This document shows positions 27,020-35,438 of a DNA stretch of 64,000 bases, piece by piece (the first letter of the stretch is position 1; each line of letters begins with the position of its first letter). Location: positions 1 through 64,000 of the forward strand of contig NZ_JAAGPD010000042.1 of the NCBI RefSeq assembly GCF_017104565.1, read 5' to 3'. This DNA comes from Paraburkholderia sp. Tr-20389. Its GTDB lineage: Bacteria; Pseudomonadota; Gammaproteobacteria; Burkholderiales; Burkholderiaceae. The position numbers and the translations under genes are program-made. The notes beneath the pieces are model-generated. The model searched no databases and was not told the origin of the DNA. It saw only the letters and a program-made list of their open reading frames with translations.

Positions 27020-27679
27020 TCACGTCAGGCCATTCTCCTGCGCGTACTTGACGAGATCGGCATTCGTTTGCAGAAGGAGCTTCTTCATTGCTGCGCTTTT
27101 TTGTGTCGCGACGGTCGAGATCGAGCGATTCACGTGACGCGCAATCTCGGTCAACGACGCACCCGACGCGAAGAGCCGGACCACCTCCAGTTCCTTCTTT
27201 GTCAGGATGGGCTTGCGGCCGTCCTTGCCGTTGCCGAAAGGCAGATGCTGCAGGCGCGCGCGGATTCTCTGGGAAAAATACGGTCGCCGGTCATGCATGA
27301 CTTCGAGTGCGGCCGAGCGAAATTCCTCGACGCCCTCGCACTTATCGACGATGCCCGCGACCCCGGAACGCGACAGGCGCGCGAGCATGTCGTCATTGTT
27401 AAGCATAGTGAACACGACGACGGGAATGTGCGGGTGCTGTCTGCACAACTGGCCGATCAGGCTGAGGCCGTCGGTGTCGCTCTTGCCTGTGTCCATCGTG
27501 AAGTCGGTGATGATGAGATCCCAGTGGCCTTGAGACAGCACCCCGAGCAGTTCGGTGCCGGACTTGACGGCGGCATCGACGGTGAAGCCCGGTAGGCCGT
27601 TCAATGCATGGATGACAGCGTGGCGGATGACCGGGTGGTCGTCGGCGATGACAATCCTGAAGTCGCGGCTATGGTTCAT
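27020..27679 (-). CDS. LuxR/NarL-type response regulator
   Basis: A 219-residue two-component regulator. Receiver domain: VIADDHPVIRHAV with the acidic pair, the phosphorylated Asp in LIITDFTMDTGKSDTDGLSL, then VVVFTMLNNDDML and a Lys in GIVDKCEG. C-terminal LuxR helix-turn-helix: LTKKELEVVRLFASGASLTE, then IARHVNRSISTVATQKSAAM. The frame is open 20 codons upstream but MNHSRDFRIVIADD fits the family. No histidine kinase is adjacent. It is divergent from the peptide-export locus across an AT-rich region, so it is the likeliest regulator of that locus. Confidence 0.85.
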   Translation of the reverse strand: MNHSRDFRIVIADDHPVIRHAVIHALNGLPGFTVDAAVKSGTELLGVLSQGHWDLIITDFTMDTGKSDTDGLSLIGQLCRQHPHIPVVVFTMLNNDDMLARLSRSGVAGIVDKCEGVEEFRSAALEVMHDRRPYFSQRIRARLQHLPFGNGKDGRKPILTKKELEVVRLFASGASLTEIARHVNRSISTVATQKSAAMKKLLLQTNADLVKYAQENGLT

Positions 27680-27975
27680 GTTTGCAGCAAACGGACGTTG
27701 AGGCGTTGCTATTTTTATTGAGACGTGACGTATGAACATCGGAATCCGACGGGCCGACTAAGACGGACGTAAGGATCGGGCGGATTCTATCTCGCGAATC
27801 ACTTACGAATCAAACCACAGTATGGCGAAGTGTTTGTTTGAAAGGAATTTTTAAACAATTTGTGTAGTGATCCGAATAAATCGAAAAAATCTGATACTAA
27901 GGCCGCACTTCGATGCGGATAATCGCTTTCTATGGTTGCAAGAAGCCGATCTACTCCAAAATCAATCTGAACAGA
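27680..27975. other. AT-rich divergent control region of the peptide locus
   Basis: About 300 bases with markedly lower G+C than the rest of the window, including runs such as GGAATTTTTAAACAATTTG near 27845. It separates the response regulator from the leftward end of the peptide locus. Nothing in it codes convincingly; it probably holds promoters for both directions. The low G+C also hints at horizontal acquisition. Confidence 0.4.
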
Positions 27976-28704
27976 ATGGCGGTACGAGGCAAATTTTCGT
28001 TGTTCTTTGTGACGCTGTGTCTGGTGTGCGACGCCGTGGACGCATTCGGGAGCAAGGCGTCCAATCGATCAGGCACGGATCGGAGCGGTGCTGAGAGCGG
28101 GGAAGCTTCCAGGTCGCAGTCCGTCACTGCCGGAAGCGTGACGGCGTCCAATCGTGCGAGCGGGTTGCCTGCGCGCTTGCATGCGAGGCGAGCGCGCTGT
28201 GCGGTCGCGCGATTCGCATGCAAGCCGCTTGCACGTCATTGTCGGCACGGATCGAGGGCGAGTGGCGGCAACGTCCATTCGCCATGTTCAGCGATACATC
28301 GGCAGCGGCGAGGACGGCAATATGCGCATCGGAAACCATCGATGCCTGGTCAGCCGGTCACCCGCGTCAATGCGCAAACTGTGGAGCGGCGTTGTACAAA
28401 CGGATGCGACGTTCAGAGGGACGAGATTTTTTCACATGAGGTTGCACAGCCCGTCGACATCGAGCCGGCTGAGAAGTCATTCGACGTGCCGGACTTCGGT
28501 GGCTGGTTTGGGGGCGAGCGTCCTTTGACGGTCAGCGTGCGGGAAAGCGTATCCACCGTTGACGAGACGATTGCAGCGAACGTCGCGACCGCCAACCAGA
28601 CAGACGGCGCGGCGAAGTTGATGTTGCTGGGCGCGGCACTGCCCGCTGCATTCCCGGTATCGGGAGAAGTGCGTGTTTACCCGTTGGCGGCTACGGCGCG
28701 ATAG
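27976..28704 (+). pseudogene. Uncertain secreted-protein frame, perhaps frameshifted
   Basis: An open frame of 242 codons from ATG 27976. The start looks like a signal peptide (KFSLFFVTLCLVCDAVDAFG) followed by a Ser/Gly-rich segment. The end (VSVRESVSTVDETIAANVAT, then MLLGAALPAAFPVSGEVRVY) has normal codon use. The centre (about residues 65-150) is Arg/His/Cys-rich like an out-of-frame translation, and better-looking stretches occur there in the other two forward frames. No ribosome binding site is seen. Either a decayed gene with compensating frameshifts or chance openness. It lies directly upstream of the first precursor gene. Confidence 0.3.
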
Positions 28705-28785
28705 CAATGTATTGACGGGTGAAGTCGCTTGGAGAAGGAAAGAAAGCAGAAAAGGTTCTTAGTGGTCTCGTCAAGGAGGAGTGGT

Positions 28786-28977
28786 ATGCAAAAGATAGAA
28801 AGGAACGCACTAGCGAAAGAGTGGCTTTCCGGAGGCGGAAGTTCGAGTTCGAGTTCCAGCTCCAGCTCCAGCTCAAGTACTAATACGAACACGATTACGA
28901 TCGTGATTACAGGAGGCAGCAGCTCCTCGGGCGGAAAGTCCGGCGGTGGAGTCATTCCGCCGTACAGCAGGCATTGA
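28786..28977 (+). CDS. Double-glycine precursor peptide 1, poly-serine type (63 aa)
   Basis: ATG 28786 has a near-perfect AAGGAGGA at 28773-28780. The 63-residue product has a 17-residue leader MQKIERNALAKEWLSGG, then G, thirteen consecutive serines (28840-28878), TNTNTITIVIT and a Gly/Ser tail ending VIPPYSRH. Leader residues MQKIER-x-AL-x-K, a hydrophobic at -4 and Gly-Gly at -2/-1 are shared with the second precursor. The C39-peptidase exporter encoded downstream recognises such leaders and cuts after GG. The mature peptide would be hydrophilic, about 46 residues, and exported through HlyD/TolC partners. Bacteriocin, signal or adhesive roles are all possible. Confidence 0.75.
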   Translation: MQKIERNALAKEWLSGGGSSSSSSSSSSSSSTNTNTITIVITGGSSSSGGKSGGGVIPPYSRH

Positions 28978-29117
28978 GCGCCGGTGCACACAGTATTGAA
29001 CATTGGGCGTCATCGACTGCAGGCGACGACGCGGCAGTGATCAAAAGCCGGCGGTACGTTTCCGTCGGGTTGAGATGCAGTAAGTTGATTCATTGATATC
29101 CATTGAGGAAGAAACAG

Positions 29118-29273
29118 ATGCAAAAGATCGAACGTATGGCATTGGAAAAGGCTACGGTTGCAGGTGGTTGCTGCAAGTCGTCGACCGGCAATAGCACGCA
29201 TACGAGCACGAGCAGCAGCACCAGCACGAGTTCGAACACCAACACGATCACGATCGTGGTCAAGAGCGCGTGA
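29118..29273 (+). CDS. Double-glycine precursor peptide 2, Ser/Thr-rich with N-terminal Cys-Cys (51 aa)
   Basis: ATG 29118 follows GAGGAA at 29105-29110. The leader MQKIERMALEKATVAGG is exactly 17 residues and aligns without gaps to that of precursor 1. The predicted mature part has 34 residues: it begins CCKSSTGNSTHTS, continues as a Ser/Thr run and ends NTNTITIVVKSA, sharing NTNTITIV with precursor 1. Two adjacent cysteines at the new N-terminus could form a disulfide, bind metal or be acylated. The gene is too short for many annotation pipelines. It is followed by a strong hairpin before the downstream export genes. Confidence 0.75.
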   Translation: MQKIERMALEKATVAGGCCKSSTGNSTHTSTSSSTSTSSNTNTITIVVKSA

Positions 29274-29353
29274 TGCATCGGGCAGCGACGTCGCCGGCGA
29301 GCAATGACCATAGGTCGTCGTTGTAGCCGGCATCGACGGTACGTTGTCCGATG

Positions 29354-29379
29354 AGCCCCACGCCCAGGCGTGGGGCTTT
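29354..29379 (+). terminator. Hairpin (leaky terminator or attenuator) after the precursors
   Basis: AGCCCCACGCC (29354-29364) is perfectly complementary to GGCGTGGGGCT (29367-29377), so about ten base pairs with a 4-base loop can form. Only three T residues follow, so termination should be partial. This would give high precursor and lower machinery expression from one promoter. The stem overlaps the false start at 29344, supporting ATG 29404 as the real start of the next gene. Confidence 0.6.
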
Positions 29380-29403
29380 GCGCTTCATGTTTCCGATACG
29401 TCC

Positions 29404-30369
29404 ATGAACAGGTTGTCGCGATTCTGCACGCGGTTGCGCGCGCTGCGCGTCCTATGCAAGGGTACGCTGCGGCGCGCGCGGCTCGGTGCATGGTGCATGG
29501 TGATGTCACGTATTCCAGCCGTTGCGCTCCAGCCGATTGCCGTCGGCGCCGCGCTGCTACGCATGCTGTTCGACGCGAACGGCCGCGCACTCGCAGTCGA
29601 GCGCGCCGATTTCTGCCGCGAGGTGATGAAAGTGGCGAGTCCCGGAAGTGTCCGTCTGCTCGCGGCGCGCACGTTGGAATCGCTGATCGACCGGCGTCTG
29701 CATTTCGGGCGTCAGCGCCGCTTCGACGAAGCGTGGCCGGATCTTCAGCGGGTCGCTGGCTCGCTTGCGCAGGCAATCGGGAAAATCAGGCGGGAGGCGC
29801 CCGGATGTCCCGTTATCGTGTCGCCTTTCCACTATGTATCGCAGTACGCGAACATTTATGTGATCGACGAACTGCGCACGAGGCTGGGCCTCGCGCGAAT
29901 CGGCGTCGTGTCCGGCGTGCCGCGCGATCTTTATGGCAGCGACGACGCGATGATTCCCGACATCGACGTGCTTTGCACCTACGACCAGAACAACCGCAGT
30001 GGCCTTGGACTGCAAGTGGCGCGCTCGCTCAGGCGCCACGGCGTCGTCGTCGTGTTCGCGGATGTACCGCCCTACACGCTGCATCGCTATCCGATGGAAA
30101 CCGTCGGTGTGTCGATCTTCGGCAGTGCGGCGCGTATTCACAACGGCGTGTTCCGCATGGGGGCGCCTTTTGGCGCGGTTTTGCTGCCGTTCTATCTTGG
30201 CTTCGAGCGCGGCAGGTTTGGCGCAACGGTGCTCGAGCCGATTCAGCTCGCCGATAGAGACGCGCCGCAACGCCTTGCCCGGCAGATCGAGCAGGCGCTT
30301 ATGAGCAACTTCGAATCCTCCCTCGTCACCGGTCACCCGTCGCTGTACGCGTTTGCGGCCGCGAAATAA
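29404..30369 (+). CDS. LpxL/HtrB-like (lysophospholipid acyltransferase superfamily) protein with altered catalytic motif
   Basis: A 321-residue protein whose layout follows the LpxL/HtrB acyltransferases: a hydrophobic N-terminal helix (about 37-56), the block CPVIVSPFHYVSQYANIY where LpxL has its His-x4-Glu motif, then VVSGVPRDLYGSDDA, VVVFADVPPYTLHRYPM, the acyl-binding block VGVSIFGSAARIHNGVFRMG and APFGAVLLPFYLGFERGRFG. His143 is present but the acidic partner is Tyr148 here, so normal acyl transfer is doubtful. Its place between two leader peptides and their exporter suggests it modifies the peptides or binds lipid for export. This is inference. Confidence 0.6.
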   Translation: MNRLSRFCTRLRALRVLCKGTLRRARLGAWCMVMSRIPAVALQPIAVGAALLRMLFDANGRALAVERADFCREVMKVASPGSVRLLAARTLESLIDRRLHFGRQRRFDEAWPDLQRVAGSLAQAIGKIRREAPGCPVIVSPFHYVSQYANIYVIDELRTRLGLARIGVVSGVPRDLYGSDDAMIPDIDVLCTYDQNNRSGLGLQVARSLRRHGVVVVFADVPPYTLHRYPMETVGVSIFGSAARIHNGVFRMGAPFGAVLLPFYLGFERGRFGATVLEPIQLADRDAPQRLARQIEQALMSNFESSLVTGHPSLYAFAAAK

Positions 30370-30412
30370 CACGCGATGCGTCACGCGGACCGCATCGATC
30401 GCGCAGAACATC

Positions 30413-31615
30413 ATGGAACCTACCAGTCTTCCTCAATTCAGGGACGTGCCGTGGCGATGGATCGCTTATGGCGCATCCGTCATCGTTGTCGGGGCGGTCG
30501 CTTTCGGCTTTCTGCACGAAGTCGAACTCAAACAGGACGTCCAGTGCGAAATCGTCTCGCCTTCCGACGTGAAGGTGCAGGGTCTGAGCGGCCTCGTGTC
30601 ATCCGTCTACGTGCATCCAGGCGAACGCGTGCATCAGGGCATGCCGCTCTTCAGCGTGCAGCGCGACCTGTCGCTCGCGAGCGATGGCCGTCGGCGTCCT
30701 GAGTTCGACGAACAGATGCGCGATGAGCAGATTCGCATGATAGATCTGCAGTACGAGCAGCGCAGGGCCCAGCTTGCCGCGCAACTCGATGCGTCGAACG
30801 GGACCGTCGCCATCCGTCACGCCGAAGCCCTCGCCCTCGATGAGCAGATCGCGCAGAACCGGCAGCTCGTCAGCGAGGCGCAACAGAAGCTAGGCAGGCT
30901 GCAATCGGTGTCCGACTATGTGACCGCCGATCGAATCGAACAGGCGAGCGCCGACACGCACCAGATGAAAATATCCGTCGCACAGGGTCTCGCACGGCGC
31001 CAGCAGCTGGAGGGCGAAATCGTGGCGCTGCGCAGCGCGCAAGGTAATCTCGCGGCGCAATTGAAAGAAAACGATGCGCGTCATGCCCGCGAGATACAGG
31101 ATATCCGGATGCGCTTCGAGCAGGCGCGCCAGGATGCGACCATCTCGGCGCCGAAGTCGGGCGTTGTCGCGTTTTCGAATCTCGTCGCTGGGCGCACGCT
31201 CGATGCGGCCGATGTCGCGCTCGTCATCGCCACCGACGACAGGGGCGCGCTGCGCGCCGCACTGCGCATACCGTCGCGCCGACGCGGCTTCGTGCGCACG
31301 GGGCAGACGGTGCGTCTCAAGTTCGATGCGTTTCCGTATGTCAAGTTCGGCACGTACGACGCGCGCATCGACGCGATCTCGCCGACCACCATCCAGTCCG
31401 GTATGTCGGCCGTCCCTGTGTCTCCAACGGCGCCCAGGGAATCCGGCGACGGCGATTTCATGGCCTGGGCCGCCCTGCGTGGCAGAACATTCGACTACGG
31501 CAAACAGCGCTTCGACATCCTGCCCGGCATGCGCGCGACCGCGAGTATCGTCGTCGAACGCCGAACGATCGCCGAGTGGGTGCTGGAGCCGCTGTTTCGC
31601 ACGCTCAGAGGATGA
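30413..31615 (+). CDS. HlyD-family periplasmic adaptor
   Basis: A 400-residue membrane-fusion protein: short cytoplasmic start (MEPTSLPQFRDVPWRW), one membrane helix (about 15-34), a lipoyl half-motif VSPSDVKVQGLSGLVSSVYV-like region near residue 55, a long coiled coil (about 100-230, EQMRDEQIRMIDLQYEQRRA onward) and a second lipoyl/barrel half (ATISAPKSGVVAFSNLVAGR). It links the inner-membrane exporter to the TolC-type channel. The ATG at 30413 fits; the frame is open 20 codons earlier. Its TGA overlaps the exporter start as ATGA, indicating translational coupling. Confidence 0.85.
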   Translation: MEPTSLPQFRDVPWRWIAYGASVIVVGAVAFGFLHEVELKQDVQCEIVSPSDVKVQGLSGLVSSVYVHPGERVHQGMPLFSVQRDLSLASDGRRRPEFDEQMRDEQIRMIDLQYEQRRAQLAAQLDASNGTVAIRHAEALALDEQIAQNRQLVSEAQQKLGRLQSVSDYVTADRIEQASADTHQMKISVAQGLARRQQLEGEIVALRSAQGNLAAQLKENDARHAREIQDIRMRFEQARQDATISAPKSGVVAFSNLVAGRTLDAADVALVIATDDRGALRAALRIPSRRRGFVRTGQTVRLKFDAFPYVKFGTYDARIDAISPTTIQSGMSAVPVSPTAPRESGDGDFMAWAALRGRTFDYGKQRFDILPGMRATASIVVERRTIAEWVLEPLFRTLRG

Positions 31616-33741
31616 AGCCGATGCGCACGATTTTCCAGAATGAAGTCGCGGAATGCGGCTACGCCTGTCTCGCGATGGTGCTCACGCATCTGGGCAGAGC
31701 AACCGAAGTGCGCGAGCTGTCCGCGTATCGACCCATTTCCGCGAACGGACTGTCGTTGATGGACCTGTACGACATGGCCACGGAGTTCGGCCTCGCGGTA
31801 CAGGCCTACCGCTTCGGAATCGAGGACATGCCGACCATCAGGCGCGGTTCGATCGTGCATTTCGGCGGCGCGCATTTCGTGGTGTTCGAGAAGTGCGGGC
31901 GCGGCTACGTTCAGATCCTCGATCCCGCGACGGGACGACGACGTATTGCGATGGACACGTTTTCATCGGCGGTATCGGGCTTTCTGCTCGAATGCTCGCC
32001 GACGCCCTCGATGCCGCGCATCCGCGCGAAGTCTCAGGTACCGCGCGCGCTCGCGCGGATACGGGCGCTGAACCCCGATTTGCGGGGTCATCTCGGCAAG
32101 CTGATGTTCGTGATGATCGGCAGTCAGTTCGCGATTCTCGCGGCGCCTTACTTCGGCAACCTGACGCTCGACTACGTTGTCGCGGCCGACAACATGAATC
32201 TGTTGAACGTGCTCGTGCTGACGTTCGCGGGCATTTTCGCGGTGGGCGCGCTGAGCCAGTACGTGGAGTCGCGTCTGATCGAACTCTTGCATCAGCGCGT
32301 ACAGGTGAATGCAACGCAGGGCCTGCTGGGGCATCTGCTGCGCAATCCTATGTCGTGGTTCGAGAAGCGCCACGTCGGCGATATATTCGCACGCGTCAAG
32401 GCACAAGACGAAATCAGTCTGCAGGCAACGCGCACCTTCACGCATATGTGCGTCGACATGTCGGTCGGCATGCTCGCGCTCGCGTTGATGCTGGTTCAGA
32501 GCCCATTGCTCACGGGCCTCGCGCTGGCGATGTTCGCTCTTTATCTCGCGATTGCGCTCGGCATGTTCGCACCGATGCGCGACAATCACGCGCTCGTACT
32601 GGAGACATCTGCCCGTTGCGACGACGCGCTGATCGAAACGATCCGCGCTGCGTCGCTGATCAAGCTCGCGCAAGGCGAAACGCGACGCACAGCGATGTTC
32701 ATGACGAAGTATCGCGAATACGTGGCGGCGTTGCTGACGGGCAATCGTTTGAGCAGCGCGCGCGATAGCTTCCTGAAGGCCGTCCAGTATGCCGATACGC
32801 TTGCCATCACGTGGGTCTCCGCGCGCCTCATGCTAGGCGGGAAGATCTCCGTCGGCGTGTTCTACTCGTTCCTGATCTACAAGTCGCTGATGTCGGACCG
32901 CTTCGCGAGTGTGGTCAACGGTGTGTTTGCGCGCTTCATGCTGAGCGTGCCGGTGGCGCGCGTAGACGACATCATCGAATGCGAGGAGGAGCGTTATACG
33001 CCCCCGGCCGACATTCGGCGCGCAATGGAAGTTCGCGAGTTCGAGCGCATCGAGGTGCGTGGCGTGACGTTCAGCTACGGCGTGTCGGACCAGCCTGTGC
33101 TCAGGAACGCCAGCCTCGAGATTCGCGCCGGAGACAAGATCGCGATAACAGGACCATCGGGCGCAGGCAAGTCGACGCTCTTCAAACTGCTGTCGGCGGC
33201 GGAGCCGTTGCAGCATGGGCAAATGACACTGAATGGCATTGCCTGGACGAACCTGACGGTAGACGAAATCCGCCGCCATGCCGCGCATATGCGGCAGGGC
33301 GATCTGATCCTGCATGGGTCGATCGCGGACAACGTGTCGCTGTTCTCCGGTAGCATCGACGAACAGCGGTTGCAGTCGACACTCGAAGACGTCGGACTCT
33401 GGAACGACGTGATGCGTTTGCCGATGCGTACGCGCACAATTATCAGCGACACGATCGCGAACATATCGGCGGGACAGCGACAACGCCTGTTGCTGGCGCG
33501 CGCGCTGTATCAGGAGCGCAGTCTGCTGCTGCTGGACGAGCCCACGTCGAACCTCGACCCTGTTTCCGTCAGCCAGATCGGCGAGCTATTGCAGCGGCTC
33601 CCATGGACGGTCGTCGTCATCACGCACGACATGTCGCTCGCGGGGAGCTTCAGCGAGCGCTACCGGCTCGTCGATGGCGAACTCGTACGGGAGTGCTCAG
33701 CTTTAACTCATCTCGATGTTGCCGATCCGTTGCATGCGTAG
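31612..33741 (+). CDS. C39-peptidase-containing ABC exporter (PCAT) for double-glycine peptides
   Basis: A 709-residue exporter in three parts. The C39 peptidase (1-130) has catalytic Cys15 in EVAECGYACLAMV with Gln9 upstream, His88 in GGAHFVVFEK and Asp104 in QILDPATGRR. A six-helix membrane domain follows (about 150-440; PYFGNLTLDYVVAADNMNLL, RNPMSWFEKRHVGDIFARVK). The ATPase has Walker A GPSGAGKST (514-522), signature NISAGQRQRLLLARAL and Walker B LLLLDEPTSNLDP. This is a complete PCAT that cleaves after Gly-Gly and exports the peptide, so both precursor genes have a matching processing enzyme in cis. The TolC gene overlaps its 3' end. Confidence 0.9.
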   Translation: MKPMRTIFQNEVAECGYACLAMVLTHLGRATEVRELSAYRPISANGLSLMDLYDMATEFGLAVQAYRFGIEDMPTIRRGSIVHFGGAHFVVFEKCGRGYVQILDPATGRRRIAMDTFSSAVSGFLLECSPTPSMPRIRAKSQVPRALARIRALNPDLRGHLGKLMFVMIGSQFAILAAPYFGNLTLDYVVAADNMNLLNVLVLTFAGIFAVGALSQYVESRLIELLHQRVQVNATQGLLGHLLRNPMSWFEKRHVGDIFARVKAQDEISLQATRTFTHMCVDMSVGMLALALMLVQSPLLTGLALAMFALYLAIALGMFAPMRDNHALVLETSARCDDALIETIRAASLIKLAQGETRRTAMFMTKYREYVAALLTGNRLSSARDSFLKAVQYADTLAITWVSARLMLGGKISVGVFYSFLIYKSLMSDRFASVVNGVFARFMLSVPVARVDDIIECEEERYTPPADIRRAMEVREFERIEVRGVTFSYGVSDQPVLRNASLEIRAGDKIAITGPSGAGKSTLFKLLSAAEPLQHGQMTLNGIAWTNLTVDEIRRHAAHMRQGDLILHGSIADNVSLFSGSIDEQRLQSTLEDVGLWNDVMRLPMRTRTIISDTIANISAGQRQRLLLARALYQERSLLLLDEPTSNLDPVSVSQIGELLQRLPWTVVVITHDMSLAGSFSERYRLVDGELVRECSALTHLDVADPLHA

Positions 33742-35032
33742 ATTCAGCGCTTCAATTTTCGTCGCCGTGCTGTGCGCGGCAGGGACACCCGTTCGAGCGG
33801 CCGATCTCGTCACTGTCGTTCAGCAGGCGCTCGGCCACGACGCCGATCTCGCTCAGGCGCGCGCTGCCTACGTCGCCGCGCAAGAGGCCGTCCCGCAGGC
33901 GCGCGCAGCATTGTTGCCACAGGTTTCCGCCGGCTGGGGGCGCAGTTACAACAGCATCGACACGAATGGCTTTCCGCGTCAGTCGTACTGGCAGAACGGC
34001 TGGACGGTTTCCCTGACGCAACCGGTCTTCGACTGGACCCGATGGACGGCATACCGGCAAGCGGACTATGTCGAGGCGCGCGGTGCCGTCGATGTCGACG
34101 CCGCGCAGCAGGCGGCGCTGTTGCGGGCGGTGCGCGCGTATTTCGATGAACTTGCCGCGGAGGACGAGGTGAAGCGTGCGGCCGAGTACGGCGCAGCCGT
34201 CGATGCGCATTACCAGGTCTTGCAGCGCAATCGCGCGGCGGGCGAGGCGACCGTCATCGATATGCGCGAGGCCCAGACGACACGCGATCAGGCGACCCTG
34301 CAACAGACCGACGCGCAGAACGCGTTGCAGGCGAAACGCCGCACACTCGAACAGGCGACGGGCGTACCGTTCGACGCGCTCGCACGGCTGCCAGATGGGA
34401 TCGCACTTCCGCGTCTCGCGCCCGAAGACGTCGAGGCGTGGGCTGCGCAAGCGAAGGAGCACGGCTACGGGGTTCAGCAAAAGCAACTCGATTGGCAGAT
34501 CGCGAAGCTCGATGTCAGCAAGGCGGAGGGCGCGCACTATCCGTCTGTCTACGCGACGGGCACTTATACGCCGGCAGGCGCGGCATCAGGTTACGCGCGG
34601 CCGACCACGACCACCACGGGCATGCTGTCGATTTCGATTCCGCTGTACGCGGGGGGCGCGACGCAGTCCAGGGTACGCGAGACGCAGGCGTTGCAGGACA
34701 AGGCGCAAGAGGCGCTGGTGAGCGCCGTGCGCGCCGCCGACTCGTCTGCTCGTGACAACTATGCGCGCTACCAGCAGGGGCGCACGCGGGTCGAGATGCT
34801 GGCGCGTCTCGTCGCGTCGTGTCGCGAGACGCTCGCGGCCACGCGTATCGGGTACAAGGTCGGCACGCGCACGAGTATCGACGTGCTGCGCGCTATCGAC
34901 ACGCTGTATGCGACCCAGCGTGACCTGTTCGCCGCGCGCTACGACACCATCGTGGCGCTGATGCTGCTCAAGGGCGATACGTCGACGCTCAGCCTCACGG
35001 ATGTCGTGCAGATCAACACTGTGCTTCATTGA
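33734..35032 (+). CDS. TolC-family outer-membrane efflux channel
   Basis: A 432-residue channel with a signal peptide (SASIFVAVLCAAGTPVRA), then ADLVTVVQQALGHDADLAQA, the start of the first coiled-coil hairpin. The internal repeat is seen in the second half (QKQLDWQIAKLDVSKAEGAH, then VGTRTSIDVLRAIDTLYATQ). It completes the tripartite route with the HlyD protein and PCAT. The ATG at 33734 overlaps the PCAT stop (ATGCGTAG); an ATG at 33716 in the same frame is possible. It ends the export operon. Confidence 0.88.
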   Translation: MRRFSASIFVAVLCAAGTPVRAADLVTVVQQALGHDADLAQARAAYVAAQEAVPQARAALLPQVSAGWGRSYNSIDTNGFPRQSYWQNGWTVSLTQPVFDWTRWTAYRQADYVEARGAVDVDAAQQAALLRAVRAYFDELAAEDEVKRAAEYGAAVDAHYQVLQRNRAAGEATVIDMREAQTTRDQATLQQTDAQNALQAKRRTLEQATGVPFDALARLPDGIALPRLAPEDVEAWAAQAKEHGYGVQQKQLDWQIAKLDVSKAEGAHYPSVYATGTYTPAGAASGYARPTTTTTGMLSISIPLYAGGATQSRVRETQALQDKAQEALVSAVRAADSSARDNYARYQQGRTRVEMLARLVASCRETLAATRIGYKVGTRTSIDVLRAIDTLYATQRDLFAARYDTIVALMLLKGDTSTLSLTDVVQINTVLH

Positions 35033-35210
35033 CGCCGTGACGGAATGAGGAATGGCGACGGGTTTGGGTAAAGAAGTGTCAAGAATGCGCCATGTCGAGA
35101 AACACGCGTCAACGCCTCGTCAGGCGGAGCGTTTATAGCGATGACCCCATCCGGTCGGGCGGCCAGCGAGCCGTCAGTGAACAACCAAAGGTTTTGAGGA
35201 ATCGTCAAGC

Positions 35211-35438
35211 ATGAACAAGCACATCATCGCTGCCGCTCTGGCAGGTCTGTTCTCGATCGCTGCATTCGCACAGGCATCGGCTCCCGCCGCTACGGAAGCC
35301 GCACCGGCAGCCGCATCGGCACCGGCACCGGCCGCCAAGCACCACGCGAAGAAGCATCACGCCAAGAAGCACCACGCACACAAGAAGGCAGCCCCCGCCA
35401 AGGCCGCGAGCGACGAAGCAGCATCGGCAGCACAGTAA
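35211..35438 (+). CDS. Ala/His/Lys-rich small periplasmic protein
   Basis: A 75-residue protein with a clear signal peptide (IIAAALAGLFSIAAFA, cut before QASAPA), then an Ala/Pro-rich spacer, three HHAKK-type units (KHHAKKHHAKKHHAHKK) and an Ala/Glu-rich end. Such short Ala/His/Lys proteins are common in Burkholderiales; metal binding by the His clusters is plausible but unproven. It has its own gap of 178 bases upstream and a strong terminator, so it is a single-gene unit. Confidence 0.75.
   Translation: MNKHIIAAALAGLFSIAAFAQASAPAATEAAPAAASAPAPAAKHHAKKHHAKKHHAHKKAAPAKAASDEAASAAQ

Follow-up and report, generated by a model that had tools for sequence, protein, structure and literature searches.

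Class II microcins use a separate chromosomal TolC, and selidamide-type lipidated ribosomal peptides rely on GNAT-type enzymes or on enzymes derived from polyketide or fatty acid synthases. We know of no action on peptides by the lipid-modifying PatA/LpxL family. In class II microcins, the cores vary while leader and exporter are conserved (PMC9746304). Here, we analyzed a locus of Paraburkholderia sp. Tr-20389 (contig NZ_JAAGPD010000042.1) within a stretch of 64,000 nucleotides, the whole of which is called the window. The locus encodes two small precursor peptides with Gly-Gly leaders, an acyltransferase-like protein (LPX), a HlyD-type adaptor, a C39-peptidase ATP-binding cassette (ABC) exporter, and a TolC-family channel (Table 1). 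In our reading, to which we give a probability of roughly one-half, this is a dedicated system that makes, modifies, cuts, and exports fast-changing small ribosomal peptides, which are probably fatty-acylated by LPX. Comparison of the sequences shows conserved precursors with a common leader and Lys residue, intact catalytic residues in the exporter, and the constant company of LPX. The acyltransferase-like protein, touched only in passing by an earlier sequence-only reading of this DNA, is the more telling part.

The loci counted were 91, namely the window, 68 Paraburkholderia loci, 19 from other genera, and 3 from a distant genus; loci L009–L014, L113, and L114 are outside the counts. Precursors of the window's family, 118 altogether, were found in 89 of the 91 loci. 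This total consists of a main count (116 precursors in 87 of 89 loci, with 115 leaders of 17 residues and Lys at mature position +3, or Lys+3, in 107) and two more loci, each contributing a single precursor. As a whole, 117 of the 118 precursors had a leader of exactly 17 residues ending with Gly-Gly (consensus MQKI[D/E/N]RNxLAxxxVAGG), and 109 carried Lys+3. Because the precursors were located by a leader-start pattern and the counts demanded Arg at residue 6 as well as Gly-Gly, the Arg6 and Gly-Gly counts arise partly by construction, which is not the case for the 17-residue length, Leu9, and Lys+3. Three loci were without any precursor bearing Lys exactly at +3 (Lys at +6 in L076 and L077, and at +2 in L127). 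All Paraburkholderia loci but one (67 of 68) showed a leader-type precursor immediately. In the exception (L080), as well as in L121, L124, L133, and the three distant loci, the gene order was HlyD-ABC-TolC-LPX with the precursor directly upstream of HlyD. The frames were broken in L130 and L131, the two loci without any precursor; one spurious L131 frame was dropped.

Leaders were under purifying selection, and cores were highly variable. For 78 leaders from the Paraburkholderia loci and the window, codons with a single difference gave a proportion of nonsynonymous changes (pN) of 0.059 and of synonymous changes (pS) of 0.42, i.e. a ratio of 0.14. Chance open frames, which were considered as a source of the precursors, are ruled out by this conservation and selection. 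The two small genes predicted from the window alone are accordingly real, and frames of their kind proved to be conserved in related genomes. The ribosome sites described for them were also found (Shine-Dalgarno-like AAGGAGGAG for precursor 1 and GAGGAAGAA for precursor 2), as were the ungapped 17-residue leader ending with Gly-Gly and the NTNTITIV stretch common to both. A precursor search of the window's own genome yielded nine matches at E up to 10, of which only the two known precursors were below 0.1. The NTITIV codons of both precursors (28890–28905 and 29243–29258) form a near-palindrome, which might be an element in the DNA or the RNA, or nothing but coding sequence.

Core length ranged from 16 to 57 residues with a median of 24 (111 precursors), and among 3077 core residues Trp was absent and Glu (3) and Asp (28) were rare. 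When 88 loci were typed, 62 possessed a single precursor with a Cys-Cys core start, 24 at least one other core, and 2 none. In the window and loci L084–L087, precursor 1 is Ser-rich, precursor 2 is of the CCKSS form, and an NTIT-like stretch occurs in both. A different clade (L045, L098–L100, and L106) encodes GGCNK/GGANK-like peptides with Val-rich ends, and up to four precursors were found in loci of g10, a genus taken for Caballeronia. One precursor was present in 65 of 87 precursor-bearing loci, two in 16, three in 5, and four in 1. The earlier interpretation, in which a Gly-Gly peptide system is served by a processing exporter of its own, was borne out, but neither "two-peptide" nor "Ser/Thr-rich" is a general trait; the Ser/Thr-rich pair characterizes the window's five-member clade. 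In the exporter tree (85 rows; L083, L126, and L130 left out), the window's clade of five had a support of 96 and was nested in a set of eight that includes three single-Cys-Cys loci (support 100). Supported branches required at least four changes between precursor types; the tree label "multi" denotes any non-Cys-Cys precursor and includes L060 and L100, each with one precursor found. Thus, the cores served by this single exporter family differ greatly.

A close exporter homologue (E up to 1e-150) was found at 69 places in 68 of 145 Paraburkholderia genomes, the window's own included. This secreted-peptide system is therefore common, occurring in about half of the Paraburkholderia genomes examined, and is undescribed by the searches made. 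Within the family, 47 of 398 genomes, from 4 of 25 genera, carried LPX. Of 300 genomes drawn order-wide, two contained it, both Paraburkholderia and one of them the window's own; of 299 drawn phylum-wide, it was detected in the window's own and in one from another order of the same class. In that distant genus, 3 of 25 genomes encoded LPX. Genome G011 (L138) matches the window in the flanks at 91% and 85%, and the region corresponding to about 27740–35066 is absent. At this empty site, the precursors and export genes are absent as a unit.

The C39 residues Cys12, His85, and Asp101 (706-residue numbering), noted earlier as intact in the window, were intact in all 81 aligned exporters, i.e. the window and the others matching from residue 1. 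PDB sequence matches of the exporter were led by a PCAT1-type transporter and ComA. The exporter might serve another substrate only, but precursors lie adjacent in 89 of 91 loci. In L126 (G360), an apparently decaying locus, three precursors are left, the HlyD match is shortened, and no exporter or TolC match was obtained.

The predicted fold of LPX matches PatA and LpxM. Its His is invariant in 67 of 67 sequences (rows L050 and L083 were dropped from the alignment), and the same His/SQYAN is present throughout. Most likely, LPX would fatty-acylate the precursor by drawing on an acyl thioester, and the near-invariant Lys+3 would be the best candidate for the acceptor. The C39 domain of the ABC exporter would then cut the leader after Gly-Gly, and ABC-HlyD-TolC would release the (lipo)peptide to the outside, where the product may act on competitors or surfaces. 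It is possible, and we propose it tentatively, that these peptides form a new lipidated ribosomal class for which a PatA/LpxL-type enzyme was recruited to acylate Lys+3 of Gly-Gly precursors; the same tentative proposal would entail that Paraburkholderia, three more genera of the family, and one genus of another order secrete lipopeptides whose cores are exchangeable.

Several points weigh against this interpretation. Acylation is predicted only, with no direct sign of it. The acid of HX4(D/E) is replaced by Tyr in 67 of 67 LPX sequences, and none of 21 members gave a Pfam match at E 0.1, PF03279 included, a family matched by two other genes of the window's genome. LPX and one LpxL of the same genome (L143 only) matched marginally, with an hmmsearch E of 0.012 and an hhalign probability of 0.7%, and the LPX profile had no match among PDB sequences at E 1. 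The structural model was of moderate quality (predicted local distance difference test score, 70.9); the score was lowest (<50) at residues 220–232, the region of D220, and D220 could not be mapped onto PatA E200. LPX could be non-catalytic because the canonical acid and a Pfam match are missing. Lys exactly at +3 is missing in 9 of 118 precursors; the window clade's precursor 1 belongs here, and some of these hold no Lys at all. Alternatively, Lys+3 might be what the peptidase recognizes. Finally, 8 of 88 loci (L065, L080, L081, L082, L083, L126, L130, and L133) gave no complete exporter match, the match being partial, interrupted, or absent. Precursors are kept in all of these but L130, and some systems therefore look decayed or dependent on another exporter.

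In a different explanation, the product is an unmodified microcin-like bacteriocin, and LPX provides self-protection by acylating the cell's own lipid A or phospholipid. LPX was the sole non-transport gene seen to be kept across lineages when neighbours of at least 90 residues were compared, lipid A and glycolipids are substrates of its fold family, and variable cores behind a conserved leader are bacteriocin-like. Nevertheless, immunity factors tend to vary with the peptide, whereas one LPX family with the same His/SQYAN serves CCK, Ser/Thr, and Pro-rich cores. Moreover, confirmed immunity proteins of class II microcins comprise 51–216 residues according to PMC9746304, compared with about 320 for LPX. 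We consider self-protection by LPX rather unlikely.

Table 1. Coordinates of the features of the peptide locus in the window
Feature	Position	Strand	Family match or score
Response regulator, RcsB/NarL type, divergent	27020..27739	-	Pfam Response_reg + GerE
Frame with signal-peptide-like start and tail TIAANVATANQTDGAAKLMLL, apparent usher remnant	27976..28704	+	
Precursor peptide 1: leader (residues 1-17), then Ser-rich core beginning at Gly18; 63 aa	28786..28977	+	
Precursor peptide 2: leader (residues 1-17), then core beginning at Cys18 (CCKSS...NTITIVVKSA); 51 aa	29118..29273	+	
Strong RNA hairpin in the precursor 2–LPX gap	29353..29378	+	-25.8 kcal/mol, z -4.59
LPX, PatA/LpxL-fold acyltransferase-like, 321 aa, His143, HxxSQYAN motif	29404..30369	+	
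HlyD-type periplasmic adaptor	30413..31615	+	Pfam HlyD_3; TIGR01843 below cut-off
C39-peptidase ABC exporter	31612..33741 (start 31612 or 31621)	+	Pfam Peptidase_C39, ABC_membrane, ABC_tran
TolC-family outer-membrane channel	33716..35032	+	Pfam OEP; TIGR01844 above cut-off

The genes had been described as coupled by overlaps. Judged from the sequence, LPX most likely starts at ATG 29404, 3' of the hairpin, rather than at TTG 29344, and HlyD at ATG 30413. With these starts, LPX and HlyD do not overlap, and genuine overlaps are confined to HlyD/ABC (ATGA at 31612) and ABC/TolC (33716–33741). A strong G+C-rich hairpin, its sequence differing among loci, was often found 3' of the last precursor gene. 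Its mean z was -3.8 over 68 loci, as compared with 0.25 for a coding control (15 shuffles per locus). It surpassed all 30 shuffles in 52 of the 68 loci, whereas in the other 16 at least one of 30 shuffles was equally stable. The hairpin of the window was not listed by a simple terminator scan. Such a hairpin may be a partial terminator or 3' stabilizer, and its use would likely be to keep precursor mRNA above exporter mRNA. A sigma-70 promoter scan gave one match versus 1.0 in shuffles. Beyond TolC, positions 35211–35438 encode a small Lys/His/Ala-rich protein with a signal-peptide-like start and a weak match to the acid-shock protein Asr, below the NCBIfam cut-off.

The divergent gene upstream, termed a LuxR-type regulator before, is indeed divergent but rather encodes a response regulator, its best NCBIfam match being RcsB (below cut-off). 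Homologues were detected in the retrieved flanks at 10 of 88 loci (the window counted among them), and these loci belong to two Paraburkholderia clades with non-Cys-Cys precursors. This adjacency, together with ComA, a signal-peptide exporter, being among the nearest solved exporters by sequence, would suit peptides that serve in cell-cell signaling and are sensed through the regulator. However, for 78 of 88 loci the retrieved flanks were free of regulator matches, and no immunity or sensor gene (nor a sensor/receptor cluster) was conserved across loci among neighbouring frames of at least 90 residues, a set that excludes frames of the size of many immunity proteins and contains some antisense artefacts of high GC. 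G011 retains the regulator (82.5% identity) without the peptide module, which weakens the regulator's tie to the system. Its membership is uncertain, and signaling through it is very improbable.

The gap between the regulator and precursor 1 (27740–28785) contains a conserved frame that is apparently the remnant of a gene for a fimbrial outer-membrane usher with the barrel lost; its signal-peptide-like start is a reading by eye. The remnant itself had no Pfam match, whereas Pfam assigns its long relative in L009 to the PapC/FimD-type ushers. In the window's wider clade (16 tree rows), a frame ending with the tail ANVATADQTDGA (as a pattern) lies upstream of the precursors in 15 loci, i.e. the window, L081, L084, and L086–L097; the sixteenth, L085, has a weaker homologue. 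The frame is an usher in many relatives, and the barrel is gone in the window and some relatives, the window retaining start and tail. Usher homologues were found upstream, within the fetched flanks, in 24 of 88 loci, 10 of them in g10. These ushers, the usher and fimbrial Pfam matches, and NT-T/I-V/I stretches recurring in non-Cys-Cys precursors of several lineages could indicate extracellular structural or adhesion peptides, in which the alternating Thr/Ile/Val stretch of Ser/Thr-type cores would form β-strands and these would assemble on the surface or dock on chaperone-usher fimbriae encoded nearby. We regard this as improbable: the fetched flanks of 64 of 88 loci are without an usher, the stretch is missing from most CCK precursors, and the flanking genes differ by lineage, which would suit inherited synteny as well. 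By reading, without a family search, a divergent neighbour in 13 loci (L066–L076, L078, and L079) resembles a trimeric autotransporter, and formate-dehydrogenase-like frames lie nearby in a 25-locus cluster (L046 and others).

The earlier suggestion that the system is undescribed was upheld, as the precursor family is present neither in Pfam nor in NCBIfam or PHROGs and no description was found in the titles and abstract openings of the literature searched. Likewise, no literature was found that joins LpxL, acyltransferase, ribosomally synthesized and post-translationally modified peptide, and precursor peptide. If the peptides are acylated, acyltransferases of the lipid A or phosphatidylinositol mannoside type would be linked to ribosomal peptide modification, with a leader and enzyme that tolerate many cores.

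By its gene content, the system belongs with the Gly-Gly peptide/C39-exporter (type I secretion) systems: a precursor with a Gly-Gly leader is encoded beside the exporter, the C39 Cys, His, and Asp are present, and an adaptor and an outer-membrane channel accompany them. Its additions to this kind are a constant partner with an acyltransferase fold and a leader that stays fixed while the cores are exchangeable. An assignment to the microcins would be premature. Class II microcins of the colicin V type likewise have a Gly-Gly leader, an ABC exporter with a C39 peptidase, an adaptor, and TolC, but here the TolC gene lies within the operon, the cores are nearly free of Glu, Asp, and Trp, LPX is a constant partner, and no cognate immunity gene was seen among neighbours of at least 90 residues. 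PCAT1 and ComA resemble the exporter in architecture and catalytic residues, whereas the setting here is Gram-negative and tripartite, with HlyD and TolC. The nitrile hydratase leader peptide bacteriocin exporters provide the best NCBIfam match (TIGR03796), but the score of 345 bits is far below the cut-off of 853.3, and the leaders here are short and not nitrile-hydratase-like. LPX shares the predicted fold and invariant His with PatA and LpxL/LpxM and differs from them in the Tyr at the acid position, the missing Pfam match, and its genetic tie to peptide export. With lipidated ribosomal peptides of the selidamide type, the system would have in common the logic of placing a lipid on a ribosomal peptide.
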